A program made the translations under genes and the position numbers. Below, piece by piece: positions 1 to 20,641 of a stretch of 21,282 nt of DNA. The first letter of the stretch is position 1. Each line of letters opens with the position of its first letter. Origin of the DNA: a virus; IMG/VR virus record IMGVR_UViG_3300025282_000303, positions 1 through 21,282 of that record. One strand, 5' to 3'. The notes below the pieces were generated by a model. That model did no database searches. It worked only from the letters and a program-made list of their open reading frames with translations, and was not told the origin of the DNA.

Positions 1-588
1 CACCTGTGTGCCTGTTCTGTAATCTACGTTACCCGAACCATCTAATACTAAGAACTTATCTGTATCTGTTCCTGCCGCTGCAACGGTTGATAGCGTAAGC
101 GTATTAGCAACAGTAACCTTACCTGCAAATGCTGCCGTAGAATCAGCTACAGTGGCATTTGGAGTAAGAGTTATGTGAGTCACATAAGCATCTATGTCTG
201 CAATATTGTTAGCAAAGGTAACTACTCCACCATCAGCCACCGACCATCTCCACGCATCACCTGCTGTATCTCCTCGATCAGCATACAGATACATGTTAGC
301 GGCAGCACCATTGGCTCCTCTCACCGCAAGAGTCTGGGTATCTATGGATGACAAATGGATGGCGTCATCAAACTTGATCCTTCTCTTTGAAGAACCACTT
401 GTTACCTGGACATCAAATTCACCATTAGTTGTATGAGCAATTGCCCAGTAACCACTAGAGTTTGTGGTGGTAGAGGCTCTACTGGTAGCTGTATCGTTCT
501 TGTCAAATAAGTTGATCGTGGCTCCAGAGATTGCCGCCCCTGCATCGTCATAAACGAATCCCTTGAAGTTAATCGTTGGGGTTGCCAT
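1..588 (-). CDS. Tail fibre / receptor-binding-like protein, N-terminal part (runs off the left edge)
   Basis: An open frame runs from ATG at 588 to the window edge without a stop, giving 196 codons; the C-terminus lies outside. The start is firm: AGGAGGT sits at 603-597, eight bases before the ATG, and the preceding gene stops two bases upstream. Residues 5-70 (beginning INFKGFVYDDAGAAISGATI) look like a small carboxypeptidase-regulatory-like or Ig-like beta-sandwich, with the GxV-x-D-x-G-x-x-ISGA-x-I pattern and an SSGYW strand. Next come the TLAVRGANGAAANMYLYAD and GDAWRW motifs seen in many phage tail proteins, then Ala/Thr/Val-rich beta repeats ending near FLVLDGSGNVDYRTG. The likely role is a virion tail appendage that contacts the host surface. 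The general class is fairly sure; the receptor and the missing C-terminal half are unknown. Confidence 0.72.
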   Translation of the reverse strand, partial: MATPTINFKGFVYDDAGAAISGATINLFDKNDTATSRASTTTNSSGYWAIAHTTNGEFDVQVTSGSSKRRIKFDDAIHLSSIDTQTLAVRGANGAAANMYLYADRGDTAGDAWRWSVADGGVVTFANNIADIDAYVTHITLTPNATVADSTAAFAGKVTVANTLTLSTVAAAGTDTDKFLVLDGSGNVDYRTGTQV

Positions 589-5880: not shown

Positions 5881-6291
5881 TTATTTATGTTCCTTTGTCT
5901 TATGGAACCTAAGTTGAGACGAAGCGGTTGCCTTGTCTTCAGCATCAGGAACAAAGTCGCACTGATCACAGGCGATTACTCGTTCCTTAACTGGATCTTC
6001 CGCAACTGTTCCATTCTTGGCTGTAGATTCCTTGCACCATTGGCAATCACACTGATCTCCGGGTTTCCATGGGAACAAACCGATCTTTGCCTTTCTGAGT
6101 ACATAGTCTGGGTTTCCTGGCACACCCTTTGTAGTTGAGCCGACAGGTTCAGATAGGTTCCCATCAACAGTATAACTTGCCTTGTGTCGATATAGGGTAG
6201 TTTTAGGTTGCCACTCGTCTATATACCGTAAAGTGAATCCTGCATTAGTTAATTCTAACTTTTGCTGGTTTCGTTCAGTTATTCCTACCAT
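5881..6291 (-). CDS. Small Cys/His-rich, probably zinc-binding protein after the capsid gene
   Basis: This 136-residue protein starts at ATG 6291 behind an AAAGGA ribosome site. Two metal-binding clusters are visible. The first is C81-x-C83-x2-C86 (GDQCDCQWCKE). The second is C108-x2-C111 (ACDQCDF) with H130 and H135 near the C-terminus (RFHKTKEHK). The second resembles a C2H2-type finger with a longer spacer. The N-terminal half (LTNAGFTLRYIDEWQPKTTL and GVPGNPDYVLRKAKIGLFPW) matches nothing I know. Possible roles are a capsid-associated or DNA-binding protein, or a regulator carried within the structural operon. Zinc binding is inferred from residue spacing, and the function is not assigned. 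Confidence 0.55.
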   Translation of the reverse strand: MVGITERNQQKLELTNAGFTLRYIDEWQPKTTLYRHKASYTVDGNLSEPVGSTTKGVPGNPDYVLRKAKIGLFPWKPGDQCDCQWCKESTAKNGTVAEDPVKERVIACDQCDFVPDAEDKATASSQLRFHKTKEHK

Positions 6292-6314: not shown

Positions 6315-7190
6315 CTATGAAGTTGCAATATCACCGATTTCAAATATAACTCCTGCTCCACGACTATCATCGAGTTCAAAGACTCCATAGTCAGCAGTCA
6401 AGACAACTTCAGTAGCTCTGAGTGACGCATCTCTTTGTCGCTCAGTTCTAGTATCAACGCTGGTAAGTGCAGCCATAGCTGTCTTATCAGCTATAACTCC
6501 AATACCAGAATCAACTCCAGATGTTTTCTCAATATTCCCATCTTCAAAAATGGAAACGCCATTGATGGGTCGCAAGCCACTATAGAAGTTCTTTAGCAAG
6601 TCTACGCTCCATCCAGATGTAAGTTCGCCACCTACTGTGCTAGTAATAGTAGCTGACTCTCCAGAGAGATAAGCAACTGCGTTTGGATGGTGATTGATAT
6701 ACAACTGATTACCAAACTTATTAGCTTTGGCGTTAGAAATAATAGCGTGAACATTTGCTGCACTCATATTTCTTCCGTCTAAACCCAGTTTAGTACCGCC
6801 ATTTAAGTTGGTATACAGAGCGATGACATCAGTATCTTTCTTTCGTGCCATCCCATCGCCCAACTGCCTCCCGATCATCGAAAAGACGTTATCAGCAGCT
6901 TGTCGAACAAGTTTATCAGTAAGAATTACCTTTGCTCCTACCTCAGATGCGGTAAGGTCAACGGTAGTCATACCAATCTCTTCCTCGTCAATTATATCCT
7001 GTCCGTCTGTCAAGTCACTCATTGTCATCTGACCGACTTTTGGAACAGTTACTTGTTTAGCCCCTTTAGGGAGCTTGAACTGCTCAATAAGAGCGATTGC
7101 CGGAGCGTTATGTTCCTCTGTATATCTGGCTGCTGAAATTATAATGCGTTGAGCATTTTCCAGATTGCCAGTTGTAGCTGTCTGTGCCAT
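6315..7190 (-). CDS. Major capsid protein (HK97-fold type)
   Basis: This 291-residue protein starts at ATG 7190 with AAGGAGA seven bases upstream. Typical coat features are visible: an N-terminal helix (NAQRIIISAARYTEEHNAP); beta strands flanking an extended loop (KQVTVPKVGQMTMSDLTDGQ, then EEEIGMTTVDLTASEVGAKV); VILTDKLVRQAADNVFSMIG leading into a spine-type helix; and a C-terminal RATEVVLTADYGVFELDDSR strand set characteristic of phage coat proteins. The length fits a compact HK97-type coat. It directly follows the scaffold gene, as expected for a coat that needs a separate scaffold, and no protease gene is visible. It forms the icosahedral shell. Confidence in the role is high; no attempt was made to assign a named subfamily. 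Confidence 0.88.
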   Translation of the reverse strand: MAQTATTGNLENAQRIIISAARYTEEHNAPAIALIEQFKLPKGAKQVTVPKVGQMTMSDLTDGQDIIDEEEIGMTTVDLTASEVGAKVILTDKLVRQAADNVFSMIGRQLGDGMARKKDTDVIALYTNLNGGTKLGLDGRNMSAANVHAIISNAKANKFGNQLYINHHPNAVAYLSGESATITSTVGGELTSGWSVDLLKNFYSGLRPINGVSIFEDGNIEKTSGVDSGIGVIADKTAMAALTSVDTRTERQRDASLRATEVVLTADYGVFELDDSRGAGVIFEIGDIATS

Positions 7191-7215: not shown

Positions 7216-7998
7216 TTAGCCTAGCCCAGCAGCCCTTCGTGCTGCTGCTTGTGCCTGAGAAGATCGGTCACCCTGATTATATCTCTCAAGCAACCTGCCC
7301 TCATCGGTGGAAGCTGCTGGTGTCGATTGACTATCGTCAAAAGACTGCGAGGGAACTAGCTGTGCCTTCAGCCTAGCTATTTCCGCATCCTTTTCCCTAT
7401 CGGATTTCATGCGTTTCGCCGCTGCTTCCATGCTCTGAGGATCTTGATATTTCCTCAACTCTGCCAAGTCCGGCAGATTTAAGTCGTATTGTGCAGCAAA
7501 GTGTTCTGCTGCTGCTGACTGACCCTGTATATGCCTAACGTAATCTGATTGCTGTTGCTGTATCTGTGCAACCTGTGCCTGTTGCGAAGACCAGTTCTGT
7601 GCAATCTGATCAGCTTGTTCAGGTAAATAGCCCTGTTGCTCAAGCTGCTGCCTATAGTGGTCAGTCTGTTGTTGTATCTGTGTTTGGTATTGCGCCTGTG
7701 CATACTGAGCATTCTGCTGTTCAACTTCCTGTATACGCCTGGTTAAGTCGTCTATAGGCGGAGCAGCAGGAGGAGCCTCTTCAGTTACTAGCGGGGCAGT
7801 GCTTGGCGACGAAGAGGCTTCGTTAGTATCCCCCTGACCTTCTTGTGACGATGAAGGCTCTGTAGTATCCTCTGCCGGAGACGCTGATACATCCTCAAAT
7901 GTATTCGCTCCTGCAAAGTCACCTGTAATATCCGTAGTAGTATTCCCTGTGTCCACAGGTGCTTCATTCTCTATAGGTTGTTCTGCCTGATTTACCAT
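7216..7998 (-). CDS. Capsid scaffolding protein
   Basis: This 260-residue protein starts at ATG 7998 behind AAAGGA. Residues 1-90 are acidic, Ser/Thr/Pro-rich and probably disordered (DTTEPSSSQEGQGDTNEASS). Residues about 90-165 are strongly Gln-rich and helical (QVEQQNAQYAQAQYQ). A charged helical stretch follows (ELRKYQDPQSMEAAAKRMKS, DREKDAEIARLKAQL), and the C-terminus ends in a short basic helix (SSQAQAAARRAAGLG). This arrangement, located directly before the coat gene, is that of phage scaffolding proteins, which organise coat assembly from inside the procapsid through a basic C-terminal helix. No protease motif is present, so it is not a fused scaffold-protease. Family assignment rests on composition and position, not on sequence similarity. 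Confidence 0.78.
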   Translation of the reverse strand: MVNQAEQPIENEAPVDTGNTTTDITGDFAGANTFEDVSASPAEDTTEPSSSQEGQGDTNEASSSPSTAPLVTEEAPPAAPPIDDLTRRIQEVEQQNAQYAQAQYQTQIQQQTDHYRQQLEQQGYLPEQADQIAQNWSSQQAQVAQIQQQQSDYVRHIQGQSAAAEHFAAQYDLNLPDLAELRKYQDPQSMEAAAKRMKSDREKDAEIARLKAQLVPSQSFDDSQSTPAASTDEGRLLERYNQGDRSSQAQAAARRAAGLG

Positions 7999-8011: not shown

Positions 8012-8048
8012 GACCTTTAAAATACTATTAGTATAGCCCAAACGTCAA
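8012..8048 (-). promoter_or_regulatory. Candidate sigma70-like promoter for the scaffold/capsid genes
   Basis: Read on the minus strand, TTGACG (8048-8043) is followed after 18 bases by TATTTT (8024-8019), about 20 bases before the scaffold ATG. The -35 matches the consensus at five of six positions and the -10 at four. A perfect 13-base inverted repeat (8022-8034) overlaps the -10 area. The gap sits just where abundant capsid proteins would need extra transcripts. It is a pattern match only and could be chance in an A/T-rich gap. Confidence 0.3.
8022..8034. other. 13-base perfect inverted repeat before the scaffold gene
   Basis: ATACTATTAGTAT has arms of six bases around a single central base. 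It lies in the 46-base gap between the giant protein stop and the scaffold start, over a candidate -10 element. It may be an operator or simply A/T-rich sequence. Confidence 0.3.
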
Positions 8049-11000
8049 TTCGCTGTAGTCACGTTGCGTGGGATGAATCCCGATTTAGTAGTTCCGTATA
8101 ACTGATTGAAAAATAGTTGCCCACGAGTTGTCTCGCCTTCATGATAGCCCCTGCCTCCATACCAGTAAACTAATAATGTATCTAAGTAAGGGAATCCTCT
8201 CTGGGCGGATTCTTGTGCGATTAGCATCTTTCTCCTGGTAGTACGAACTTTCCGTAACGAATCAATATGAGGGTTCGCATCTACATACGCATTCTTTTGT
8301 GCCATATTAGGCAAGGCGTTATATTGATCCCATTGCTGCTGAAGTGCAGCAGAGGGATTACTCGTTAACTTGCTAACATCCTTCCCTATGTTCCAGTAAG
8401 TAGATAGATACCTGCGGGCGTTATCATACTTTGTCTCTGTCTCAGACATACTAGCCTGTAGTTCCCGGATGAAGTCAGCGTATACATTGTTTCCTTTAGC
8501 CTCAGAGGAAATTCGCATTTTATCCAGGAACTCATCTCTAATCTGATAGAACTTTACCCAGTCAGCAGATTCAGGGTGATCTCCTTCAGGCTCAATCGCG
8601 TAGTAACGTGCGATTAAGAGTTGCGTTCCTTGCCTTGTATCCTTTATCTGTCCCGCTGCTGTGTATAAAGACTCGTAATAAGCATCCCTGGCATCATCAT
8701 CCATAGCGTGAACAGAACGATCATATACTTCGGCAAGAGCCATCTTCATTCCCATTCGCTTATAAATTTTCTTCTTACGTTCTTCTATCCACTTAGTAGG
8801 ATCAATACCAGTAGTATTATCTTTCCTCCACTTATCAAGTTCCCCATCGAGTCTTTGCTGCTCAAACCTTAACTTGTCATTAACCTGCCTTGAAATGATA
8901 GCCGCGTCACGAATCTCCTTGGTAGAAATCTCAGGGAACGCTTCTTCCGTTTCCCTTCGTGCCATCTGCGCCAGTCCACCTCCACGCGCGGTAAAGTCAG
9001 AATCCTTATCAGCAGCCCCTGGAGAATAAGCGTTCATAAGTTTCGTAATGAACGGGAGTTTCAGGCGTGGTCTGCGAATCTCTTTCTGGAACTGTTCATA
9101 GTCTTTCGCATCAAGGTTAGTTACAAACTCTGTCCTGCTCGTCCGGTCCATCTCCCGGTACTCTGCTACTCGTTCCTCCATAGGTCTTGCTTCTTCTTCA
9201 CGGAAACTATCCAGCATACGAACAAGATAATCAGCCATAGTTAAGGCTTCCTGTCCTACCCCACCTGTAGCACTCGTGAAGAAATGCTCTGCTCTCTTTG
9301 GGCTACTTATTCGATTCTTGATCCAGTCGGGTAGATCCGTATCATATACAGCCTGGGCAGCCCTGATTGAAGCCTCGGAGCTACGAGTATCATATTGCTC
9401 TGGAGGAAGTTCATCTCTCAATCCAAGCCCAACAACAGGCTGATCACGGAACACATCCTGACCAGTTCTAACTTCATACAGATATCTTGCTAATTCCGGC
9501 ACCGGGATACCCTCACCCAGAGGAGACTGCTCCTTGTATAAGTTATAAGCAAAAGTTTTCAAGTCAACTGGCACCTCGTTGTGCAAGTGATCAACCATAA
9601 AAGTCACAGGCTGAAACACCATGTTCCAATCACGCAACCTGTGAGGAATAACAAGGTATCTAAGTTTTGGTCTTTTAGTCGTTACGTCAAAGATGTACTC
9701 ACCGTCCTCGTTCTTTGGAGGAGGCAGCATAATAATTATAGAATTGTTTCTGACATATTCAGGAACATCATAATATAGAGGAATTCCGTCATATTCCCAT
9801 TGTTTATTCCATGACATCTGTATGAAAGCATAAACACTTGTCGCAGCACCCACGCGCAACGCAACCGACTTCGGTCCACCCAGATCCGTCCTAAAAGCCC
9901 CGGCAGTTCCTGTTTCAAATGCCTTTCCCGGTGAGCCGACACCAGCCCTAAACATGCCCTTCCCAGGTTCAAGGAACTGATACTTGGGAACGCTCTCGTG
10001 AGAAACCCGAAGACCCTTAAAAGGTCCTTCTTCAATAAGATTAGTTGTTTCGTTAACTTTATATTGCCTCATTTTTACTTTAGGCAACAGATTGATTCCC
10101 ATTGCGCGGAACGGGTATTTCATGCCTTCCATAGTAGCATTCAGAAACAGAATATAACTATTCAGTTCCCTGATCATATCGCCACCACGCCCGAAGTCCA
10201 GAGTAGATTGCACTCCAGCTATCGAAGCTGCTTTTGCTTCAGCCGAGTCAATTAATCCTACTCCTGTCTTGTTCCAGTTGGTATGTAGCTCATACTCCCA
10301 GTCACGCTGATCGAGTTTCATCAGGCGTTTCCACTCTGCTTTGCCTTCTTTATCTCCGAGCCTGTTTCTTAACCCCCTCCTAAAAGATTTACGTGCAATC
10401 ACGTAACGAACTGACTGCTCTGCAAGTGTACCCGCCGCAGGAACAGTCTTCCATACCTTTATCCCCGCCAGATACTTGCTATCTTTCCATGTCTGATTAT
10501 CGATACCCATCATTTCCTTTGCTGAATCTTTTATCATTTTTTCTATTTCCGCTTGCCGTCCGGGTCCTTCTAGTGCCTTTACTATTTTGGCATCGTGCCG
10601 AGAGTCTGTAACGGCTTTAGAAAGTTTTCGATACTGATCTGGAGTAGGATCAAATACCCTGGCTAGCATTCCACCACTACCCGTGAATATCTGCTCGAAT
10701 CGATCCTCTGTCTTGAAAGCTATGTTTGCCGCGCTCTTTGCGAGCCTTTGCAAACTCTCATGAGGAACTTTTAATCCGGCAACCATTGTGCCAGTAAACA
10801 TATCGATGAATTGGTTCTTAACAATAAAGACAGGGCTAAACGTAGTTAACGCTCCTCTGAAGAATCCGTTTGACATTGCTAATGTATTCTTTAGAAATCC
10901 CCTTGAACCTACTCCCCGAACAGCTAAAGCACCACGCCCGTATATCGTATTCCAAAGAGTCGGACTAACCGCACCACCCGCTTCATTTGCCGCGAAAACC

Positions 11001-13915
11001 ATTCGTTCACCCTCGCGGAAGAACGTAATCACTCCTGATTTCATATCCTCATTGTATCCAGGAAGATCCACCTCATCGAATTTATATTTAGGCTCCGGTC
11101 TTTTCGCGCCCGTCGCAATAACATACTGGTTCTTGTTCCCTACGGGCTTACTGAGAATCCCCTCGTCAACCAACTTGTCCACAATAACTCTAATCTCTTT
11201 ATCACCTGCTTTAATGTCATCAATCAGTAATTGTCCCTTAATACGTCCGAGTCCAACCGTAGTTTCCCCTGGGTCTATCCGTAGCACTTTTGACACAGTG
11301 TCATAAACATGACTATCGTCAACAATCGTTTTAGTAAACTTACTGCTTACATTAACTAAACCGTGTTCCTCAAACAAACCCATCTCAAAGAGATCGTTCA
11401 GCAAATCATTCTCAGCAGCACGCATCTCGTCTGCCATCAAATGTTTCAGCATGATCTCTCCAGTTATTGGCTTTGCTGTATAACCGATATCCTCAACCCC
11501 CTCTATTGGGATAGCAGCAAACTCATCCCATGCTCCCTTGGATAACGCGGGACCTCCACGCGCACCAGGACGGAGTAATCCGCTTCTGGTTGACGCTGCT
11601 TCTATGTAAGACATCGGCATATACCACGGCTCTCTTATCAACCTGCCTCTGGGTGTCGGTTCTAGTTTTTCCATAATCTTATTGTAACGAATAACAAGAG
11701 CATCAATCCGTTCACGAGCAGCAGCACGGGCAGCATCATCTGTCGCTCCCGCTCGTTCAAACAAGGTATTGGCTCGTTTGATTGCGTCAGGTCTTGCATT
11801 TGTAGCAGGAGCTTTCTGCAATATTCTGCGTTCTGCGTTAGTCGCTGCCTGATAGTTGTCCCATAGCTGCTTTATCTGATCAGTCTCATTGGCAGCCATT
11901 TCCGCTATCTCCTCATCTACCATGTCATATTGCTCGAAGAATTCCCTGGAAATAACTTTGCTCTCAAACTGCCTGCGTCTTGACATTCTCATCATGTCCC
12001 GTGTGTCCCTTGCCACATCCTCAAGCCAGTCCAACTGATCCTGTGTATACTTCTTAAATAAATCAGATCCTTCGCTCACATCAGTCCATCTCTTAATCAT
12101 CTCTTTATCGACCAGGACTCCCTGCTCATTTATAAGTTTCCCAGCCTCATCAAATTCATAGTCTAAGAATCTCAGAGGTCCGCGTCCCGGAACCAACGGA
12201 TCTACTTGTTTCCATGCGTCATTTTCGTCATATAGATAACCTGCGCGTTTCGCAAACACGTAACGATCAATATCGAGCCTCTTAATACCACCCTGGGACA
12301 CCGCGGGGTCCAGACTGTTTTTTAGGTAATTAGCAAAGAATATCGGTGCCTTCATCTTCGCTCCCGCAGCAAGACGCCCCTTGGTCACAACGTCAAACTT
12401 GCCACCTGGCTCAAAGATTTTACCCTTAACTATCACATTAGAACGCCAGAAGTTCTCCTGAAGATTAGTCAACAAGAATTGCCCGTTGTGAAACTTGTTC
12501 ATGAATACGATATAACTGTCTGCCGCTCTACCTGTATTCATTCTCTGCACAAAAGGAACCTTGCCACTAAGTTCCGTAGTTAACCTGGCAAAGCTATCCA
12601 GCATTTGAGTAGTTGTTTGTTTTGCCATAGCTATAGGATTCAACCATTTACTAGACTCTAATCCATCAGTCACTACAGAGCTTGCAGGATCACTCGATGC
12701 TTTAGGTCCTATAGTTTCAGGAAGTATTTTGTTATCAGGAGGAGCTACCCGCCTACCGGCAGGAGGAGGAACAGCAGGAGCATCAGTCGCAAGATCAGCA
12801 GCCGCCTCTTCAACTCGCCGCAGGTCTATATCTGCTTCGTCAAGCCTACCTAACACTTTAGCACCCGCTGACACATTAGCCTTTGGATTTTCCCTTAGTT
12901 GATTATCCGCAGTCAGGGCAAACCTGTCAGTTATGCCCGTGGTAGTTGTTTTCGCGTAAGCCATGTTAGCATTCTTCAATACCTCTTCAGGAGGAATCCC
13001 TTCTTTAATTGCCGCTGTACCCTCAGAACGTAAATAATTGGTATGCTGACGAAGTAAGCCCCAGTCAGCAGTCTTCCTTCCTAAAGGTGCGGCAATAGCA
13101 CCCACTCCTCTACCCAAACCTCTGGCTGGTACTGAAATAGCTTTCATTGCTGCACGTTCAGCAATATCTAAAGGTTTCAGTGCTGCTTCACCTACCTTTA
13201 AGGCACCTCTTGCCGCTGCTGCAACTCCAGGAGCCTGTCTTGTAAGTGTGCCTGTAGGTTGGAACCGACCCGCTCCTTCAACCCCTTTTGCTATCCTTGC
13301 TCCAGCAGGTCCAAGCATCTTCCCTGCCCGTGTTGCTGCCAAAGCTCCTCTTGCTACTCCCGCAGGTGGAAATAAAAAGTAAGGGAATTCTTCTAAAGTT
13401 CCACGCATAAATGGAGGTAACTTATAAAGTTCCTCTCCAACCTGCCTGACCTCTGTCTTTGAAAGAGGACGACCTAACTCCTGATACTTCTGGTATAGAG
13501 CTTTTTCTATATTCGCGTAACGCCTTGTTCCGGGTGCAGCATATATAGGATCTCGCCTGCTTGTTTCATACGGAGCATACGGTCCGGGCAAAGTAGCAAT
13601 ATTGTGCCTAATCGCACTTGGTAGAAACTTCCCTTCGGGTGTTACCCACGCATCTGGCTTCCATGCGAAGTTAAATGCACCGGGTCCCGGCTCCCACCTA
13701 ACAGGTAATGACTGGGTTAACCCTTCAACTATAGGAGCGAGGGCTTCCTGTTTCAGGAACTCGAAAGGAGCAGCAAGTTTTTCAATCCCTGCGGTAGCTC
13801 CCCGCACAGCAGGACCCAAGAAGCTAGCCCAGACGCTAGGGTCTTGCACGACTTGTTGAGCCGCCTGTTCAGCAGCTATCCGTGCTGCTTCGCTAGGGAA
13901 TCGTGGCGTAGTCAT
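8045..13915 (-). CDS. Giant LPD38-like polyvalent / putative ejected internal virion protein
   Basis: At 1956 residues this is the largest gene here (28% of the window). It starts at ATG 13915, sharing a base with the previous stop (TAATG). Residues about 170-290 are Gly/Ala-rich and helical (GAGARIAKGVEGAGRF, ARGLGRGVGAIAAPLGRK) and might contact membranes. A Pro-rich linker lies near 385. The core (about 760-1450) carries hallmarks I associate with LPD38, a domain of phage polyvalent proteins: EPWYMPMSY near 767, FREGERMVFAAN, LTTFSPVFIVKNQFIDMFTG near 1030, STLDFGRGGDMIRELN then FLNATMEG near 1240-1260, and PEYVRNNSI with LVIPHRLRDWN near 1425. A segment near 895-935 (IRVIVDKLVDEGILS, GNKNQYVI) resembles a winged helix. 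The C-terminal 500 residues are charged and helical. Its place between portal and scaffold suggests a protein packed in the head and delivered with DNA. No lysozyme, protease or polymerase motif is visible. Confidence 0.6.
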   Translation of the reverse strand: MTTPRFPSEAARIAAEQAAQQVVQDPSVWASFLGPAVRGATAGIEKLAAPFEFLKQEALAPIVEGLTQSLPVRWEPGPGAFNFAWKPDAWVTPEGKFLPSAIRHNIATLPGPYAPYETSRRDPIYAAPGTRRYANIEKALYQKYQELGRPLSKTEVRQVGEELYKLPPFMRGTLEEFPYFLFPPAGVARGALAATRAGKMLGPAGARIAKGVEGAGRFQPTGTLTRQAPGVAAAARGALKVGEAALKPLDIAERAAMKAISVPARGLGRGVGAIAAPLGRKTADWGLLRQHTNYLRSEGTAAIKEGIPPEEVLKNANMAYAKTTTTGITDRFALTADNQLRENPKANVSAGAKVLGRLDEADIDLRRVEEAAADLATDAPAVPPPAGRRVAPPDNKILPETIGPKASSDPASSVVTDGLESSKWLNPIAMAKQTTTQMLDSFARLTTELSGKVPFVQRMNTGRAADSYIVFMNKFHNGQFLLTNLQENFWRSNVIVKGKIFEPGGKFDVVTKGRLAAGAKMKAPIFFANYLKNSLDPAVSQGGIKRLDIDRYVFAKRAGYLYDENDAWKQVDPLVPGRGPLRFLDYEFDEAGKLINEQGVLVDKEMIKRWTDVSEGSDLFKKYTQDQLDWLEDVARDTRDMMRMSRRRQFESKVISREFFEQYDMVDEEIAEMAANETDQIKQLWDNYQAATNAERRILQKAPATNARPDAIKRANTLFERAGATDDAARAAARERIDALVIRYNKIMEKLEPTPRGRLIREPWYMPMSYIEAASTRSGLLRPGARGGPALSKGAWDEFAAIPIEGVEDIGYTAKPITGEIMLKHLMADEMRAAENDLLNDLFEMGLFEEHGLVNVSSKFTKTIVDDSHVYDTVSKVLRIDPGETTVGLGRIKGQLLIDDIKAGDKEIRVIVDKLVDEGILSKPVGNKNQYVIATGAKRPEPKYKFDEVDLPGYNEDMKSGVITFFREGERMVFAANEAGGAVSPTLWNTIYGRGALAVRGVGSRGFLKNTLAMSNGFFRGALTTFSPVFIVKNQFIDMFTGTMVAGLKVPHESLQRLAKSAANIAFKTEDRFEQIFTGSGGMLARVFDPTPDQYRKLSKAVTDSRHDAKIVKALEGPGRQAEIEKMIKDSAKEMMGIDNQTWKDSKYLAGIKVWKTVPAAGTLAEQSVRYVIARKSFRRGLRNRLGDKEGKAEWKRLMKLDQRDWEYELHTNWNKTGVGLIDSAEAKAASIAGVQSTLDFGRGGDMIRELNSYILFLNATMEGMKYPFRAMGINLLPKVKMRQYKVNETTNLIEEGPFKGLRVSHESVPKYQFLEPGKGMFRAGVGSPGKAFETGTAGAFRTDLGGPKSVALRVGAATSVYAFIQMSWNKQWEYDGIPLYYDVPEYVRNNSIIIMLPPPKNEDGEYIFDVTTKRPKLRYLVIPHRLRDWNMVFQPVTFMVDHLHNEVPVDLKTFAYNLYKEQSPLGEGIPVPELARYLYEVRTGQDVFRDQPVVGLGLRDELPPEQYDTRSSEASIRAAQAVYDTDLPDWIKNRISSPKRAEHFFTSATGGVGQEALTMADYLVRMLDSFREEEARPMEERVAEYREMDRTSRTEFVTNLDAKDYEQFQKEIRRPRLKLPFITKLMNAYSPGAADKDSDFTARGGGLAQMARRETEEAFPEISTKEIRDAAIISRQVNDKLRFEQQRLDGELDKWRKDNTTGIDPTKWIEERKKKIYKRMGMKMALAEVYDRSVHAMDDDARDAYYESLYTAAGQIKDTRQGTQLLIARYYAIEPEGDHPESADWVKFYQIRDEFLDKMRISSEAKGNNVYADFIRELQASMSETETKYDNARRYLSTYWNIGKDVSKLTSNPSAALQQQWDQYNALPNMAQKNAYVDANPHIDSLRKVRTTRRKMLIAQESAQRGFPYLDTLLVYWYGGRGYHEGETTRGQLFFNQLYGTTKSGFIPRNVTTAN

Positions 13916-14277: not shown

Positions 14278-16911
14278 TCACCTTATCAAATCTAGTTGAG
14301 GGTTGTAAGGAATCGTATCGACTCCTGAAGCGAAATTGTATCGATCCCAGTCACCTTGTTGCAGACTTCCGCTAGCCAAAGCGTTTGATAAAGCATCAGA
14401 CTGTTGTTGCCTTGCTCCAGCAGCGAGTCCTGTGTAATCAGTTTGGTAAGGCGACTGGATCTGAGGTGCTAACTGCGTTCCGATTCCCTGCTGATACCGG
14501 GTTGGAGTATAAGGAGTGTATGAAGGTCGCTGGTAAGCCGAACTTATCCAGTCTGCAAACCTGCTTGCACCTTGAGGTCCATATAATTCGCTCATCCTGT
14601 TATACATGCTTGTAAGCCCTGGCTGAACATACCCAGTCATTCCTGGTCTAACTCCTAATGCCGCTTGTGTCATTCCTAAGATCGATTGTTGTAATTGCCC
14701 AGCGTCCATTCCTCCTAAATACATTTCATATCTTGGGTCAATATCAGTCAAGTCAGCACCAATTGAGCCTGCCCCAACTCCTGCGCTTGCCCTCAAGTAA
14801 TCACCTAGCCCTGCGTAAGTTCCCCTGATATCTCCCAGAGGTCTTCTCTGACCAGTTCCTAAGTATTGCCTGAACAATGATCCTCTGCCAAGTGGCTCGT
14901 ATCCACCTGCGGTTAATCCACCTGCCATCGCCTCATCGAGAGTAGGAGCCGCTATAGTTCCTGCTCCGGGAGTAACTGGTACTCCTGCCATACCGAGTGC
15001 GCCTGTAACTCCTGCTGCACCGGGAGTAACTCCTGCTACAGCACCAGGGATTCCTGTTGCTATCTGATTTAATAAGAATCTTCCGTAAGCAGGATCGAAC
15101 CCCCAACCAAGTGCTTGACCTGCTTGCTTTAATCCTGCAAGAGATAATCCAGGAAACTGCTCCATTCGGAACCTGCGGAAAGACTGTTCTGGACCCAACG
15201 CCTCTTCCCATAATGGTAGAGGTCTGGCTGCCGGTGTTACCTGATACGCACCTGGAACTGAAGCTGCGCCTGTTACCGTTGGCATCATGCCTGTAGATGC
15301 ATCTCTGCCGGAACCAAGTAATTGCGGTCCTCCCGTCATGCCTGGAGGCATTGGTGGTCCACCGGCTTCAGGAGAAGCTACCGTTCCCGCTCCATCTGTA
15401 ACGGCAACCGAATCACTTATTAATTGCGGGTACCGATCCATGAATGCTGTTCTGCTTTGATCGTATAGTGCATCTATCTCTGGAGTAACCGTGCCTCCAG
15501 CATTCGTCCACGCATCAAGTATCAACTCTTTATTAGGCATAAACCCATAAGGCGGATTATATACTCCCTGGAACTGTTCCTCTAAGAACTGAGCAAACGT
15601 CTGTGGCTGCCCAGTGGCTTGTTGTTGTCCACCAGCTTCAGTAGTCGTATCATCAGCAGTCGTGACTTTTTTGTCATCCGGAGGTCCCGTAGGTCTACCT
15701 GCTGCTTGCCAGTTCAGGAAGCTAAGTCCTCCACCCGCAGCCTTATAACTATTCCATAATACTCGATCAGCAGCATCGGGATCTACGACATCGGCTGCTC
15801 CTGCTTCGCCACCTGCGCCACCTGCGCCACCTGCCTCCTCGATAACCTCCGCAACTTCAACTCCACCAATTCCCGGCTCAGTGCCTAGTCCTCGTGCGGC
15901 ATACAATGTTGAGTAACTAGGGTCAACAACTGATGGCTGTGCAGCCTGTGCGTCTACGCCAGCAACTGCGGGACCCCCTGCCATGAGTCCACTTCTGGAA
16001 TAATCATGTAAGTTTTCCAAAGCCCAACCAGGAATCGTACCTGGATCAACAGCACCAGGAACAGCCATTCCCAGTTGACCCTCTGTAAATCCTTGTGGAG
16101 CAACTGCGCCCGTTCCAAATTCCATAAAGCCGGGTCCTGTCCCGATTCTAGTAGGTCGGACAACCGGTGGTTGTGTTACCGGTGGTGCGCCTCCGCCTCC
16201 AAATTGCTCAAATGTAGGAACGCCGTCCGTCATCGCGTAGAAATCTTCACCCATGGGTCCATAAGAAGGAATGCCTTCTTTTGGCGCAAATAGTTCATCT
16301 AATCCGGGTAATCCATAAAACCGTGTCTTGGCGTTAGCAACATCTAACTTGAGAAGATCGCTCTTTCGAGTTATACCCGACATCCCAGTCACCTGGTTGC
16401 GAACCGCCACTTGCTCTCCCCCTGGACCTCCGACTCCCGGTGGTCCACCCATTCCCCATAAAGTCGGGTCCTGCAAAGTCCTTTTCTGAACATCAGCAAC
16501 TGACTCGCCCGTGGGAACCCAGTTATTATCAAGATTCGTTATCCCACTAGCGGTATTAACCATGGGTGGCTCATCAGTTCCAAATTGTGCCTGATAAGGA
16601 ACAGGCGGAGGAACTTTCGCTTGGGCAAGTATAGCCGCAGCCTGGGATTCCAGCATGTTCGCCGGCAAAACAGTTTCTCCCGGAATCATAGGACCTCCGA
16701 CTCCCGGTGGTCCACCTCCCGCTCCCAACGGAATAAACTGCGTAAACCCTGGCTGATCCCTTTGGCTAAAAGCTCTAGGTACTGTCATGCCTGATTCTGG
16801 CATTGCCCCAAGATCACCAAGGTTAAGGAAATCTTCCGGACTAATAGTCTCCCTACCAATGTATCCTCTTTCGTGTCCTATCCACGGTCTGAGCGGATCT
16901 ATATGTGGCAT
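14278..16911 (-). CDS. Gly/Pro/Ala-rich 877-residue virion-locus protein, possible internal/ejection protein
   Basis: Starts at ATG 16911 behind CAGGAGGT, five bases upstream. Residues 1-560 are low complexity with repeated GGPPGVGGP (about 66-74 and 155-163), GGAGGAGG near 362 and many Pro/Gly/Thr linkers, so largely disordered. Short ordered islands include TFAQFLEEQFQGVYNPPYGF, RVLWNSYKAAGGGLSFLNW and FRRFRMEQFPGLSLAGLKQA. The C-terminal 250 residues look more folded and helical (MDAGQLQQSILGMTQAALGV, SMYNRMSELYGPQGASRFAD), ending in a Tyr/Gln-rich tail. No enzymatic motif is visible. It lies between the portal and two genes coupled to each other, so one of the internal head proteins ejected with DNA is a reasonable guess. 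A head-decorating or portal-associated protein is the alternative. Confidence 0.5.
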   Translation of the reverse strand: MPHIDPLRPWIGHERGYIGRETISPEDFLNLGDLGAMPESGMTVPRAFSQRDQPGFTQFIPLGAGGGPPGVGGPMIPGETVLPANMLESQAAAILAQAKVPPPVPYQAQFGTDEPPMVNTASGITNLDNNWVPTGESVADVQKRTLQDPTLWGMGGPPGVGGPGGEQVAVRNQVTGMSGITRKSDLLKLDVANAKTRFYGLPGLDELFAPKEGIPSYGPMGEDFYAMTDGVPTFEQFGGGGAPPVTQPPVVRPTRIGTGPGFMEFGTGAVAPQGFTEGQLGMAVPGAVDPGTIPGWALENLHDYSRSGLMAGGPAVAGVDAQAAQPSVVDPSYSTLYAARGLGTEPGIGGVEVAEVIEEAGGAGGAGGEAGAADVVDPDAADRVLWNSYKAAGGGLSFLNWQAAGRPTGPPDDKKVTTADDTTTEAGGQQQATGQPQTFAQFLEEQFQGVYNPPYGFMPNKELILDAWTNAGGTVTPEIDALYDQSRTAFMDRYPQLISDSVAVTDGAGTVASPEAGGPPMPPGMTGGPQLLGSGRDASTGMMPTVTGAASVPGAYQVTPAARPLPLWEEALGPEQSFRRFRMEQFPGLSLAGLKQAGQALGWGFDPAYGRFLLNQIATGIPGAVAGVTPGAAGVTGALGMAGVPVTPGAGTIAAPTLDEAMAGGLTAGGYEPLGRGSLFRQYLGTGQRRPLGDIRGTYAGLGDYLRASAGVGAGSIGADLTDIDPRYEMYLGGMDAGQLQQSILGMTQAALGVRPGMTGYVQPGLTSMYNRMSELYGPQGASRFADWISSAYQRPSYTPYTPTRYQQGIGTQLAPQIQSPYQTDYTGLAAGARQQQSDALSNALASGSLQQGDWDRYNFASGVDTIPYNPQLDLIR
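15808..15834. repeat. Three 9-base tandem repeats in the 877-residue gene
   Basis: GCCACCTGC occurs three times in a row in frame with the gene and encodes AGG tripeptides within the Gly/Ala-rich stretch near residue 362. Such repeats can change copy number by slippage without shifting the frame. Confidence 0.7.
16424..16449. repeat. 26-base direct repeat, copy 1 (GGPPGVGGP-encoding)
   Basis: This copy is identical to 16691-16716 over 26 bases, in the same orientation and frame of the same gene, and encodes GGPPGVGGP. The copies are 267 bases apart, and the sequence between them is unrelated, so this may mark local duplication or recombination. Confidence 0.75.
16691..16716. repeat. 26-base direct repeat, copy 2
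   Basis: Identical to the copy at 16424-16449; it encodes GGPPGVGGP near residue 70 of the 877-residue protein. Flanking sequence on both sides differs between copies. Confidence 0.75.
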
Positions 16912-16913
16912 AA

Positions 16914-18806
16914 TTAACCTCCTGTAGACGGTATCATTCCGATACTCGCCAATCTATTTTCTGTACTTTGTGCGCCTGGTCTTGGAGTTCCTGGTGGAAC
17001 TGAAGGACCCGGAACCTGATTTGGCATAGGCGGTGGAACGCCTAATGCTGCGTTTGGCATTACTTGTGGTGGTAATCCCGGAGGACCACCCATTCCTGGC
17101 GGTGGACCCATAGGACCACCCATCATTTCGGGAGGCATTCCCGGAGGCATACCACCCTGACCCGGAGGCATACCACCCTGCCCCGGAGGAGGTCCTCCCA
17201 TCATCTGCTGTTGCTCCATAGCCTTCATCATGTAAATACGGGAGAGTTCTCCCTGATAGAAGTTAGCCATGTCTTGCCGTCCCTGCCTGATTGCAGCTTG
17301 CAACAGTTCCCAAATCTGTGCTTCGGGTAATGCTTTCTCTGCAATCTGCATCTTAATAGAATCTTCCATTGCATCGGCAGACTGTAATCCTAAGATGTTA
17401 TCTCTAATATACATATCGGGAAGCAGGGGAGTAGGACCTTCTCTTGCGATCTGTGCCATACTCATCTTGCTCATGTCATCTTGTGGCAACTGTCCTATTA
17501 AGACAACTTCCACATCACCCGAATCCTTAATCATATCCGGCGTAATTTCTTCCTGGAAATACATACGGTTCTGATCTTGCCCTGATAGTTCCATAGCCTT
17601 AAATGCGCCTGTAATATACTGGTCACACAGCAAATGGAAGATACTTCGGTAAGCTCGTTCCATTGCATGCAGCCTTGGAATAAGCATACTCTCGACTCCC
17701 TGCCTGAGAGTATTAATAGCAAAACCAGATAATTGAAATTCTAATTGTCCGTAGATCGAATGAGGCAATCCGCCTCGCTGCATCTCACCGCTGACTAGTC
17801 CCATGAATGCGCCTGACTCTCGTGCCATTTCCAGCAAGCCAAGCGGCTCAACGTCTTCTCCCTGACCGAGTGCAATCTCGGAACCTTCCTTGTATGGATC
17901 TTCCTCAAGAGTTTTAGTTCCGTCTCGTGACTTAACCTTCAGTCCTTGTTTACGGGAGCGAGCGGTAAGCTCAAGCATTACCGACATCATAAGGTTATGT
18001 TTCTCATACAAGTCTCTTGAAGATTTAAAGCAAGATTCACCGTAGTCTTCTATGGTATCTAAGTTCCCTGTATCAGTAATTGCCTGGATCAGAGGGTTTG
18101 CACCAACTGGTCCTAAGAATACAGGAACCTTTTCCGAGCCGTGCTTAGTTGCACGTTTTAAAACTTCCTCACCGGTACAAACTATATTGTCTTCTTTGTC
18201 ATAGAAGTCATAAACTTCTACCGCATCTTCTGTCCCTGAGTCTTCACCTTCGCCTTTTAAGTCAACTCCCCACATAGCTTTAATCTCTGCCGGAGTCTTC
18301 ATGGTTTTATAGCAAGCCCACCCAAGCCCGTGCTTACCTTCTCCCCAGTAAGTATGTAGTGGGTCCCAAGGCTGAATATCTACGTAAGTCTCACCGTCTT
18401 CATCTTTAACTAACAACGCACGACCTGCGTACCATCCACGTAAACAGGTAAACCACGCAAGCTGCTGCCTGACTATAGGTTGAAACCTTGAAGTAAGCCT
18501 GTCGTCTGCTGCCTTTAAGACTCCAATAAGGAATCTTTCTTTTGCGTCATTGTTTTCCCGCTCTTCTCTTTGCGAGTTATTATACGGAACCCTGATCACC
18601 ATCTCTGCGGTGGTCATCCATGTAATAAGTTTATCTGCATAGACTTGTGGTTCATTAGATGTATAACTCTGGAACCCTTCACCTGCATCGTATTCTTCCA
18701 GTCGATAGATCTTATGATCGTCGTCCATACGGGTGCGTAGCGGTTCCGTGAGATCGTAGTGGTTATCAACAAGACTAATTATTTCTTCTGGTGTATAGTT
18801 TGCCAT
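16914..18806 (-). CDS. Portal protein with collagen-like Gly/Pro/Met-rich C-terminal tail
   Basis: This 630-residue protein starts at ATG 18806, sharing a base with the terminase stop (TAATG); an upstream TTG at 18812 adds two codons but is less likely. The portal makes the twelve-fold ring at the DNA entry vertex and binds the terminase. Support comes from position directly after the large terminase, length, a typical N-terminal helical region (YTPEEIISLVDNHYDLTEPL), a wing-type beta region (VDIQPWDPLHTYW), and a long stem/crown helix set (LPHSIYGQLEFQLSGFAINT, GVESMLIPRLHAMERAYRSI). Oddity: from about residue 533 the protein changes to a Gly/Pro/Met/Gln-rich stretch of about 85 residues with tandem GGMPPGQ units, ending STENRLASIGMIPSTGG. 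Such tails are rarely that repetitive; it may reach into the head. Confidence 0.82.
   Translation of the reverse strand: MANYTPEEIISLVDNHYDLTEPLRTRMDDDHKIYRLEEYDAGEGFQSYTSNEPQVYADKLITWMTTAEMVIRVPYNNSQREERENNDAKERFLIGVLKAADDRLTSRFQPIVRQQLAWFTCLRGWYAGRALLVKDEDGETYVDIQPWDPLHTYWGEGKHGLGWACYKTMKTPAEIKAMWGVDLKGEGEDSGTEDAVEVYDFYDKEDNIVCTGEEVLKRATKHGSEKVPVFLGPVGANPLIQAITDTGNLDTIEDYGESCFKSSRDLYEKHNLMMSVMLELTARSRKQGLKVKSRDGTKTLEEDPYKEGSEIALGQGEDVEPLGLLEMARESGAFMGLVSGEMQRGGLPHSIYGQLEFQLSGFAINTLRQGVESMLIPRLHAMERAYRSIFHLLCDQYITGAFKAMELSGQDQNRMYFQEEITPDMIKDSGDVEVVLIGQLPQDDMSKMSMAQIAREGPTPLLPDMYIRDNILGLQSADAMEDSIKMQIAEKALPEAQIWELLQAAIRQGRQDMANFYQGELSRIYMMKAMEQQQMMGGPPPGQGGMPPGQGGMPPGMPPEMMGGPMGPPPGMGGPPGLPPQVMPNAALGVPPPMPNQVPGPSVPPGTPRPGAQSTENRLASIGMIPSTGG
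17140..17180. repeat. 21-base tandem repeat in the portal gene tail
   Basis: Two 20-base identical copies (17140-17159 and 17161-17180), spaced as 21-base units, with a partial third copy starting at 17181. They encode GGMPPGQ on the minus strand, in frame with the portal. Slippage could vary the tail length. Confidence 0.75.
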
Positions 18807-20164
18807 TACCAACGCCTTACTTTAATTGTGCTACCTTCAGTAACGTAGCCGTAACCGTAACGATTTATAAGCCCATAGATCACAGCTTTAACGCCATGAT
18901 TATACTGATCTTGCGGAGTTTCGCCAACTATATTCCCATCTCGATCGTGTTTCCACCTGTATGCCCGTGTCTGTCCATCGAAGGGATTTGGCTGCACACC
19001 GAACTCAGAAAGGATACCTTTACACTTTGGATTAAATACGATGCGTGGTTCTCTCTGATCTACGGGATCAGTCTTTAAGAAAGCCTTTAATCTTTCAGTT
19101 CCTTCGTTAATTCTTATTTTCTGTGAATCAAAATAGATTCCAGTTCGATCCATCCAGACTTCTGCGGGAGCAGCCATAGCCTGATGCTGATATCCTGCGA
19201 TATCAATCACACCAAACTGTGCATCGCGCCACCAAGGGCGGGACTGTGCCACATCAATAATATCATCTGTAATAAGATCACGTTCATAAATTTCATCTAT
19301 AACTCTTATTTGATCATTTATTATCTGAATCACTTCACAGGCGTATGCTTCTGAGTAACCAGGATCAATCCAAATATGTACTGGTTCATCGGGTACATAC
19401 TCCACATCCTGCACATGAATATCAGCACGAATCTCTGTGAATACCAGTCCGCTCGGTGGTGATGGGATTCCCTCGATCCTCTCCATAAAGAAGTCATCGG
19501 AACTTGCTCGCTCTAACGCTAAAATTTCGGGATCATCTCTACCACCTGGATAAAGATACTGATTAGAATAGCTAGGTAAAGAGAACGATTGTTCGTCTTT
19601 TGAAGATGAGTATTCCCACGCCTGAAACATTTGAGGGTACCAGCCAAGTGAACCTTCAAAAGTACCAGATAAAAACATCCATCCGCGCTTCGGAGCGCAC
19701 CTACCGCGTAATCTATGAAAGGTTTCAAGGTCTAGCTGTGACGCCTCGCACCCTATAATACCGTCTGGCGCACGCATTGCTAATGTTCTTGGATCTTTAG
19801 CCGACTTAGTTTCTATCCTGGTCCCGTCAGCGAGAACGATTCTCCCCGGATCAACTCGTTTAGTAGCTGTATCAAGTAATCCAAGCGTAGCGAAGTCCTG
19901 CACCAGGTATTCAAATTCAGCTTTTGTTCTTTCATAATCCGCAGCTACCAGCCAGTAGAGACCCGGATCATCGTTATCAAGGAACCTACTGAGTAAATAC
20001 TTAGAGGCTACCATACTCTTACCGGCTTGTTCACCGCCCGCAACGAGTATAAACCGTTTACGAGAAGCGAGTATAGGTTTCTGTAATGGAGTAGGAGAGA
20101 ATCCTACCGTTTCATAGATATGATCGGTTATTTCATCTATTACCGGAGGCATGTGAGTAGTCAC
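18806..20164 (-). CDS. Large terminase subunit (packaging ATPase-nuclease)
   Basis: This 452-residue protein starts at GTG 20164, three bases after the small-terminase stop; ATG 20152 (residue 5) is an alternative. It drives DNA into the procapsid through the portal and cuts the genome. The ATPase domain has Walker A GGEQAGKS (43-50), a Walker B position GIIGCEAS (135-142) with Cys139 in place of Asp before the catalytic Glu140, and coupling motif FLSGTFEG (164-171). The nuclease domain has WIDPGY (Asp267), IDEIYE (about 289-294) and VIDIAGY (Asp321). The third acidic motif is altered: YNHGVKAVIYGL has Asn422 and Lys426 where Asp residues are usual, with only Asp419 nearby. Length is slightly short for the family. 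The assignment is secure; the meaning of the altered motifs is not. Confidence 0.9.
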   Translation of the reverse strand: MTTHMPPVIDEITDHIYETVGFSPTPLQKPILASRKRFILVAGGEQAGKSMVASKYLLSRFLDNDDPGLYWLVAADYERTKAEFEYLVQDFATLGLLDTATKRVDPGRIVLADGTRIETKSAKDPRTLAMRAPDGIIGCEASQLDLETFHRLRGRCAPKRGWMFLSGTFEGSLGWYPQMFQAWEYSSSKDEQSFSLPSYSNQYLYPGGRDDPEILALERASSDDFFMERIEGIPSPPSGLVFTEIRADIHVQDVEYVPDEPVHIWIDPGYSEAYACEVIQIINDQIRVIDEIYERDLITDDIIDVAQSRPWWRDAQFGVIDIAGYQHQAMAAPAEVWMDRTGIYFDSQKIRINEGTERLKAFLKTDPVDQREPRIVFNPKCKGILSEFGVQPNPFDGQTRAYRWKHDRDGNIVGETPQDQYNHGVKAVIYGLINRYGYGYVTEGSTIKVRRW

Positions 20165-20167
20165 TTA

Positions 20168-20641
20168 TCAATCATTTTTCTTGCCCCTTAGTATATCTTC
20201 TACTTGTTCTTGCGGTGTTCTGGGCGATTCTTCTTTTTCTTCGGTGCGCCTTACAACCTTGAACTTATCTCGTAATACTTTAAGTGTATCCTTAGCGGTT
20301 TCGTCAACTCCGCTCTCTTTAGGTCTGTATTTCTCTGCCCAGTGTGCATTAAGTAACGTAATCAGTAATACGGGATTATCTTTAGGACCCTGATCCTTAA
20401 CACGATTGACTGCCAGGTCTTGTAACATTTCCCTGAAATCATGCTTTGCATCCTCGAATTTCTTAGCAAACCCCTGTATATCATCTCTAGCCCACTGATG
20501 TGGAGTAGATCTTGAAAACCCAGTTACTTCACACGCAGCCCGTATACTACCTAGTTCCGCATAATGTGACAGGAATATATTCTGTCTCAGTATAACGTCT
20601 TCTGGTTCTGTGCCTTTTGCCCGTGAATTGCTTGCGGGCAT
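20168..20641 (-). CDS. Small terminase subunit
   Basis: This 157-residue protein starts at ATG 20641, immediately after the stop of the zinc-ribbon gene (TAAATG), with AGGAAG nine bases upstream. Residues about 28-52 (AELGSIRAACEVTGFSRSTP and HQWARDD) form a helix-turn-helix of the kind that binds the packaging site. Charged helices (GFAKKFEDAKHDFREMLQDL, DNPVLLITLLNAHW) follow and suit a multimer ring. The C-terminus (LKVLRDKFKVVRRTEEKEES) is charged and probably contacts the large subunit. It lies directly before the large terminase, as is typical. Its role is recognising phage DNA and loading the packaging motor. Assigned by HTH, length and neighbour. Confidence 0.82.
   Translation of the reverse strand: MPASNSRAKGTEPEDVILRQNIFLSHYAELGSIRAACEVTGFSRSTPHQWARDDIQGFAKKFEDAKHDFREMLQDLAVNRVKDQGPKDNPVLLITLLNAHWAEKYRPKESGVDETAKDTLKVLRDKFKVVRRTEEKEESPRTPQEQVEDILRGKKND

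Follow-up and report, generated by a model that had tools for sequence, protein, structure and literature searches.

An LPD38 giant encoded between portal and scaffold: a probable internal-core/ejection protein of a marine phage group

The window analyzed here is a stretch of 21,282 nucleotides, positions 1 to 21,282 of IMG/VR virus record IMGVR_UViG_3300025282_000303, and our subject is the giant protein of 1956 amino acids (aa) that it encodes between a portal-like gene and a probable scaffold gene. Profile comparisons of its sequence establish that this giant is a member of the LPD38 family, and a neighbor survey establishes it as a core gene of its phage group for the surveyed loci. We consider it probable, on the strength of homology, gene company, and composition, that the giant is an internal-core or ejection protein analogous to T7 gp16, encoded in an unusual genomic place. 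What is new is the portal–scaffold location for a known kind of protein, the LPD38 giant.

The gene is real, as originally called from the letters alone: it opens with ATG, runs for 1,956 codons with no internal stop, and its product recurs in two further IMG/VR contigs, at full length and 100% identity in IMGVR_UViG_3300025277_001374 and as residues 705–1956, at 100% protein identity, in IMGVR_UViG_3300008217_000947 (over the shared DNA, the first contig is mismatched to the window at 13 of 21,282 bases and the second at 2 of 11,803). The original prediction had recognized an LPD38 polyvalent protein from four sequence blocks, and had named a profile search as the check. All four blocks (FSPVFIVKNQFIDMF, DFGRGGDMIRELN, FLNATMEG, and IPHRLRDWN) are present in the claimed order (Table 1), and the Pfam LPD38 model matches at 49.1 bits (E 9.5e-13), above its curated cut-off of 27. 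An hhalign comparison of a profile of 23 relatives (residues 960–1956) with the C-terminal portions of the LPD38 giants encoded by seven named phages gave a probability of 99.5 and an E-value of 2.8e-22 over 246 columns. Only IPHRLRDWN lies within the Pfam model; DFGRGGDMIRELN and FLNATMEG fall within the wider LPD38 alignment, and FSPVFIVKNQFIDMF fits a P-x-F-x3-N-x2-(R/I)-D motif common to the giants of PTXU04, D274, CF418P1, and HTVC010P. With tblastn, the giant found nothing in named phage records at E 1e-5 and, at laxer limits, matches to the LPD38 part alone.

The LPD38 half of the original label thus stands. The "polyvalent" half, taken strictly as two or more domains, would not apply on present sequence comparisons, as Pfam and PHROG recognize no second known domain beside LPD38 in the window giant, with undescribed domains possible. 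Nor does the tie that the original prediction drew between polyvalent proteins and conjugative elements hold for LPD38, which has been described only from phage-type polyvalent proteins (PMC5512222); every homologue that we found comes from a viral contig or a phage record, the only kinds of collection searched.

Structure prediction also links the giant to LPD proteins. AlphaFold modeling of residues 971–1956 with 23 homologues reached a predicted local distance difference test (pLDDT) score of 60 and a predicted template-modeling score (pTM) of 0.44; a single-sequence model of the same residues, at pLDDT 36, was discarded. Given a pLDDT of 60, TM-scores in the Foldseek search against viral models were low, and we used E-values alone. 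The best matches were LPD proteins, namely M1IP02 (E 2.7e-7), a 504-aa protein given no name and of the same length as the HTVC010P protein, and PTXU04 (E 1e-6), and of the named matches with E below 0.001, most carry the annotation "large polyvalent protein."

Survey loci were gathered with capsid and terminase large subunit (TerL) queries, 80 loci each, and the slot was counted in loci showing an upstream marker (portal, or P118, the small 118-aa protein encoded directly before the giant) as well as scaffold. In 35 of 35 such loci, representing 30 distinct sequences, a giant ORF (open reading frame) of 1468–2929 aa lies between portal or P118 and scaffold, always beside virion genes, and a 3,057-aa giant likewise precedes scaffold at L082. 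The order is strict across the group: portal, one or two mid-size proteins, P118, giant, scaffold, capsid. These loci bear out the "core" part of the earlier suggestion, for this phage group, of a core ejection protein. Sequence identity to the window proteins is 82–94% for the major capsid protein (MCP), 48–76% for P420 and 51–71% for P649 (one near-identical relative set aside), 33–69% for P118, 27–38% where detectable for the mid-size protein P877, and 14–36% for the giants. Such a gap between giant and capsid fits the fast divergence, relative to portal, reported for ejection proteins (PMC8954989). The Pfam LPD38 model matched 12 of 23 group giants. The same slot also holds giants with no detectable similarity to the window protein (L082:31-9204, L024:379-9168, L031, L054, L066, L074, L075, L155, and L170), and either extreme divergence or replacement in place would account for the unlinked ones.

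The giant and its upstream neighbors are free or nearly free of cysteine. Across 34 distinct complete giants there is no cysteine in 66,222 residues; P877 homologues have none in 33,468 and P118 one in 7,919, in contrast to 0.89% in TerL, 0.58% in portal, and 3.4% in the P136 family. Ejection proteins of other phages share this feature, with zero cysteines in T7 gp15 and gp16 (T7 gp14 has one), in N4 gp50, gp51, and gp52, and in P22 gp7, gp20, and gp16, as do the LPD38 giants of Lederberg, BA3, PTXU04, D274, 1.183.O, and CF418P1 and all 4,515 residues of JC1 gp69. To our mind, cysteine absence would suit a protein that has to thread its way along a narrow channel and traverse the periplasm. 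The literature searched, incomplete in coverage, holds no mention of cysteine-free ejection proteins, and we claim no priority for the observation.

Gene company leads in the same direction. The LPD38 giants of named phages sit after tail genes, which is the T7/P22-like ejection position; those of BA3 and 1.183.O follow, after a single intervening gene, a protein that PHROG assigns to "DNA ejection," and that of Lederberg follows an "internal virion protein" at the same distance of one gene. JC1 gp69, an LPD38 protein of 4515 aa, was found in purified virions by mass spectrometry with 51 unique peptides (PMC9144972, Table 6), and the products of the two genes immediately upstream, gp67 and gp68, were likewise found there (PMC9144972). 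In the window group, the candidate cassette comprises P118, one or two mid-size P877-like ORFs, and the giant, and the late operon offers no rival candidate set. In the longest relative contig (39.9 kb), this operon contains no tape-measure gene and no other giant, and tail-tube and tail-terminator genes were not seen in it. As a rule, the genes for podoviral internal virion proteins lie right of those for the tail tube (PMC10386132), which makes the portal–scaffold position of the window giant unusual. T7 stores gp14, gp15, and gp16 above the portal, and the equivalent trio in N4 is gp52, gp51, and gp50 (PMC12633501).

We propose that the giant belongs, as the largest of three proteins, to an internal-core/ejection cassette (P877, P118, and giant) in a group of short-tailed marine phages. 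It would be made together with portal and scaffold; its ATG shares one base with the stop codon of P118 (TAATG), so that P118 and giant are probably translationally coupled. The protein would then take its place in the procapsid, above the portal. Its exit through portal and short tail, either before the DNA or along with it, would be followed by refolding in the host envelope. There, the C-terminal LPD38 module may act as T7 gp16 does: it would anchor at the inner membrane or cross it, and would guide the entry of the DNA. By size and company, P118 and P877 may be paired with gp14 and gp15. The term "ejection protein" used in the original prediction draws support from ejection-gene company, from the presence of JC1 gp69 in virions, and from the cysteine-free composition, which make ejection a strong inference; packaging and a membrane role are proposed along with it.

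Several points weigh against this proposal. LPD38 has had no assigned function since its naming, and for the window group the argument is built on sequence, the virion proteomics coming from the distant phage JC1. The short tail of the group is itself deduced from gene content. Cysteine poverty is not specific, since siphovirus tape measures, some tail fibers, scaffold, and capsid are also free or nearly free of cysteine. P118 shows no homology detectable by hhalign to the Lederberg internal virion protein, and it has no credible match in the PDB. The fold model is only partly confident, and searches of the PDB for relatives of the giant gave no match. The hydrophobic segments of the window giant, which lie at the start of LPD38 as is common in named LPD38 giants, are weaker than in shuffled sequence, for which reason we rejected them as membrane anchors. 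Finally, blastp did not connect 10 of the 34 distinct giants with the window protein, and hhalign of the divergent giants gave no convincing join (one try was non-significant, one was weak and at the C-terminus only, and one lacked an LPD38 signal).

How far do other roles account for the same protein? The N-terminal parts of the giants are the most variable and their lengths span 1468–3057 aa, and other LPD38 giants carry helicase, methylase, or transglycosylase domains ahead of LPD38 (PMC9144972), as would suit a virion-packaged polyvalent effector that delivers host-modifying or anti-restriction activities, in the manner of DarB or with JC1 gp69 as the model of a carrier, and is no part of a DNA conduit. 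However, none of the 23 group giants has any other credible Pfam domain, enzymatic ones included, and the window protein has no match in the defense database of PADLOC, so we set enzyme cargo aside; the presence of the giant in every genome surveyed also speaks for a core part more than an accessory. We regard the effector role as unlikely, if the best of the alternatives. Less likely still is a head-assembly or minor capsid protein in the style of MuF/SPP1 gp7, which would shape the procapsid with no need of ejection. The capsid relative Mae-JY09 does have a MuF protein in the portal–scaffold slot (361 aa, Pfam E 1e-17), and pelagiphages hold unassigned proteins there, but the Phage_Mu_F profile matched no giant tested, which led us to reject a MuF fusion, and ejection is favored by the size of the giant, by the link of LPD38 to ejection-gene neighborhoods, and by a late operon that holds no second set of ejection proteins. 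The two readings need not compete, as a protein with a MuF-like start could still be ejected later. A tape-measure protein of a long-tailed phage, shifted upstream, would also be long and cysteine-free, and a clear match to tape measures was one of two outcomes that the original prediction said would overturn it; this reading, already disfavored, is highly improbable, with no match by Pfam, PHROG, or Foldseek (none significant among viral models), no tail-tube or tail-terminator gene seen in the 39.9-kb relative, and the tape measures of capsid relatives lying with tail genes.

Returning to the proposed internal-core/ejection cassette, its proteins often share an N-terminal peptide, with starts of the form MPHIPGH, MPHxWWH, MPHQIGH, or MPHRPWH; among 1,433 distinct ORFs, 23 of the 24 such starts fall in the three cassette families. 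The carrier varies by genome and may be the giant, P877, or P118. The window giant lacks the peptide, and the window P877 starts with a longer variant, MPHIDPLRPWIGH. The peptide, or the more general form M-P-H-x3-H, was noted at L055:1067-9070, L114:6419-14433, window 14278-16911, and the viral loci L186-L264. Within both L114 and L055, giant and P877 spell the peptide with differing synonymous codons and hence do not owe it to recent copying of DNA.

Scanned for exact, ATG-encoded occurrences of MPHIPGH, IMG/VR returned 81 matches. By sequence they form 27 clusters, one of which (43 aa) is probably due to chance. In 78 matches an in-frame stop stands at most 18 codons upstream, and 77 of the 78 begin a reading frame of 100 codons or more. 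From 84,980 bacterial and archaeal genomes, scanned likewise, came 68 matches, only three of them ORF starts of that kind, as expected by chance. None of the 81 tagged viral ORFs encodes a cysteine. In counts unweighted for relatedness, ORFs of 400–700 aa are cysteine-free in 14 of 14 tagged cases vs. 28 of 95 others; among untagged ORFs of at least 700 aa in viral loci, 39 of 42 are cysteine-free, so that for long ORFs the link between tag and cysteine absence adds little. In two unrelated lineages (L251 and L252), a tagged protein and a cysteine-free giant are encoded side by side, immediately downstream of TerL and an ORF of portal size; at L251:1373-13610 these two genes are followed by the giant (2302 aa), then an MPHIPGH protein of 357 aa, and then a scaffold-sized ORF. 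LPD38 was not found in contigs with unrelated MPHIPGH proteins, in runs made without a positive control. In all, the peptide occurs on some two dozen unrelated sets of cysteine-free marine-phage proteins, several of them beside other cysteine-free giants. Tentatively, and with somewhat more doubt than confidence, we suggest that MPHIPGH, or M-P-H-x3-H, is an exchangeable address for packaging or for portal/scaffold docking, carried in many marine phages by proteins destined for the inside of the head and perhaps ejected.

The structural module of the window lies wholly on the minus strand and runs from a probable terminase small subunit through TerL, portal, P877, P118, giant, probable scaffold, and capsid to the tail side, where P136, P256, P118b, a 67-aa ORF, P420, P649, small ORFs, and a tail fiber gene follow (Table 1). 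The pelagiphages HTVC026P and HTVC112P served as positional reference for scaffold. P136 (window 5881-6291), encoded directly after capsid, is cysteine-rich and has a C2H2 zinc-finger-like end (CDQCDF...HKTKEH). One relative (L071:10745-16885) has extra ORFs of 544, 447, 304, 293, and 388 aa between P256 and P118b, which the relatives listed alongside lack. Three near-identical contigs (window 1-588 and the ends of L003 and L002) are all interrupted inside one tail-fiber gene, two at the identical base and the third about 144 bases further, and the break point is probably a variable or repetitive stretch that halts assembly.

Table 1. Features of the LPD38 giant and of the surrounding structural module, in window coordinates
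Feature	Position	Strand	Extent	Basis or remark
Giant LPD38 protein	8045..13915	-	1956 aa	219 kDa, pI 8.9, no cysteine
LPD38 match	9191..9775	-	residues 1381-1575	Pfam PF18857
Wider region aligned to LPD38 giants of named phages	9224..10279	-	residues ~1213-1564	hhalign
Block FSPVFIVKNQFIDMF	10796..10840	-	residues 1026-1040	
Block DFGRGGDMIRELN	10160..10198	-	residues 1240-1252	
Block FLNATMEG	10124..10147	-	residues 1257-1264	PFLNARVQG in relatives
Block IPHRLRDWN	9623..9649	-	residues 1423-1431	inside Pfam model
P118	13915..14271	-		small, conserved, cysteine-free; third cassette member
P877	14278..16911	-		Gly/Pro/Gln-rich, cysteine-free, mid-size, fast evolving; cassette member
Portal-like protein	16914..18812	-	632 aa	weak PHROG portal match (E 8e-4); size, position
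TerL	18806..20164	-		PHROG E 6e-20
Probable terminase small subunit	20168..20641	-		position before TerL
Probable scaffold protein	7216..7998	-		position before MCP as in HTVC026P/HTVC112P; very weak PHROG scaffold match (E 0.64)
MCP	6315..7190	-		Pfam Phage_capsid_4 E 1.5e-8
Probable head-tail adaptor P420	3228..4490	-	420 aa	position and conservation only
Probable short-tail nozzle P649	1279..3228	-	649 aa	propeller-like stretch; weak beta-propeller chain match (E 5e-4)

The giant is apparently indispensable, cysteine-free, encoded among head genes, and without recognizable enzyme cargo, and its group offers a clean system in which to ask whether LPD38 is an ejection or membrane module, a vehicle for enzyme-bearing giants. 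Slot, cysteine absence, and N-terminal peptide together could also mark internal or ejected virion proteins, independently of homology, in uncultured phages, for which sequence similarity usually fails.

Among known systems, the MuF/SPP1 gp7 head proteins occupy the same portal–scaffold slot in a capsid relative, whereas the window giant has no MuF match and is 5- to 6-fold larger. The T7 gp14-gp15-gp16 set resembles the window cassette as a trio of small, mid-size, and giant proteins, with gp15 and gp16 cysteine-free and with fast divergence; it differs in lying between tail tube and fiber genes, where the window cassette lies between portal and scaffold and not after tail tube genes, and in the transglycosylase domain of gp16, none being seen in the window giant. 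The two sets have no detected sequence relation, and the giant has no PDB or PHROG match, such proteins being known to diverge beyond detection. In N4, gp52, gp51, and gp50 (150, 644, and 3500 aa, gp50 being the virion RNA polymerase) are cysteine-free with the giant last, as in the window; that set has another genomic place, and no polymerase or peptidase domain was found in the window giant by Pfam or PHROG. Closest are the podovirus LPD38 giants (Lederberg gp8, BA3_0002, PTXU04 gp25, Vibrio phage D274 gp20, and JC1 gp69). These follow tail genes and several carry a helicase or methylase, in contrast to the portal–scaffold slot of the window giant and its lack of a recognized enzyme domain, but they are like it in having LPD38 near the C-terminus, in the blocks upstream of it, in having no cysteine, and in the small or mid-size cysteine-free neighbors encoded just upstream.

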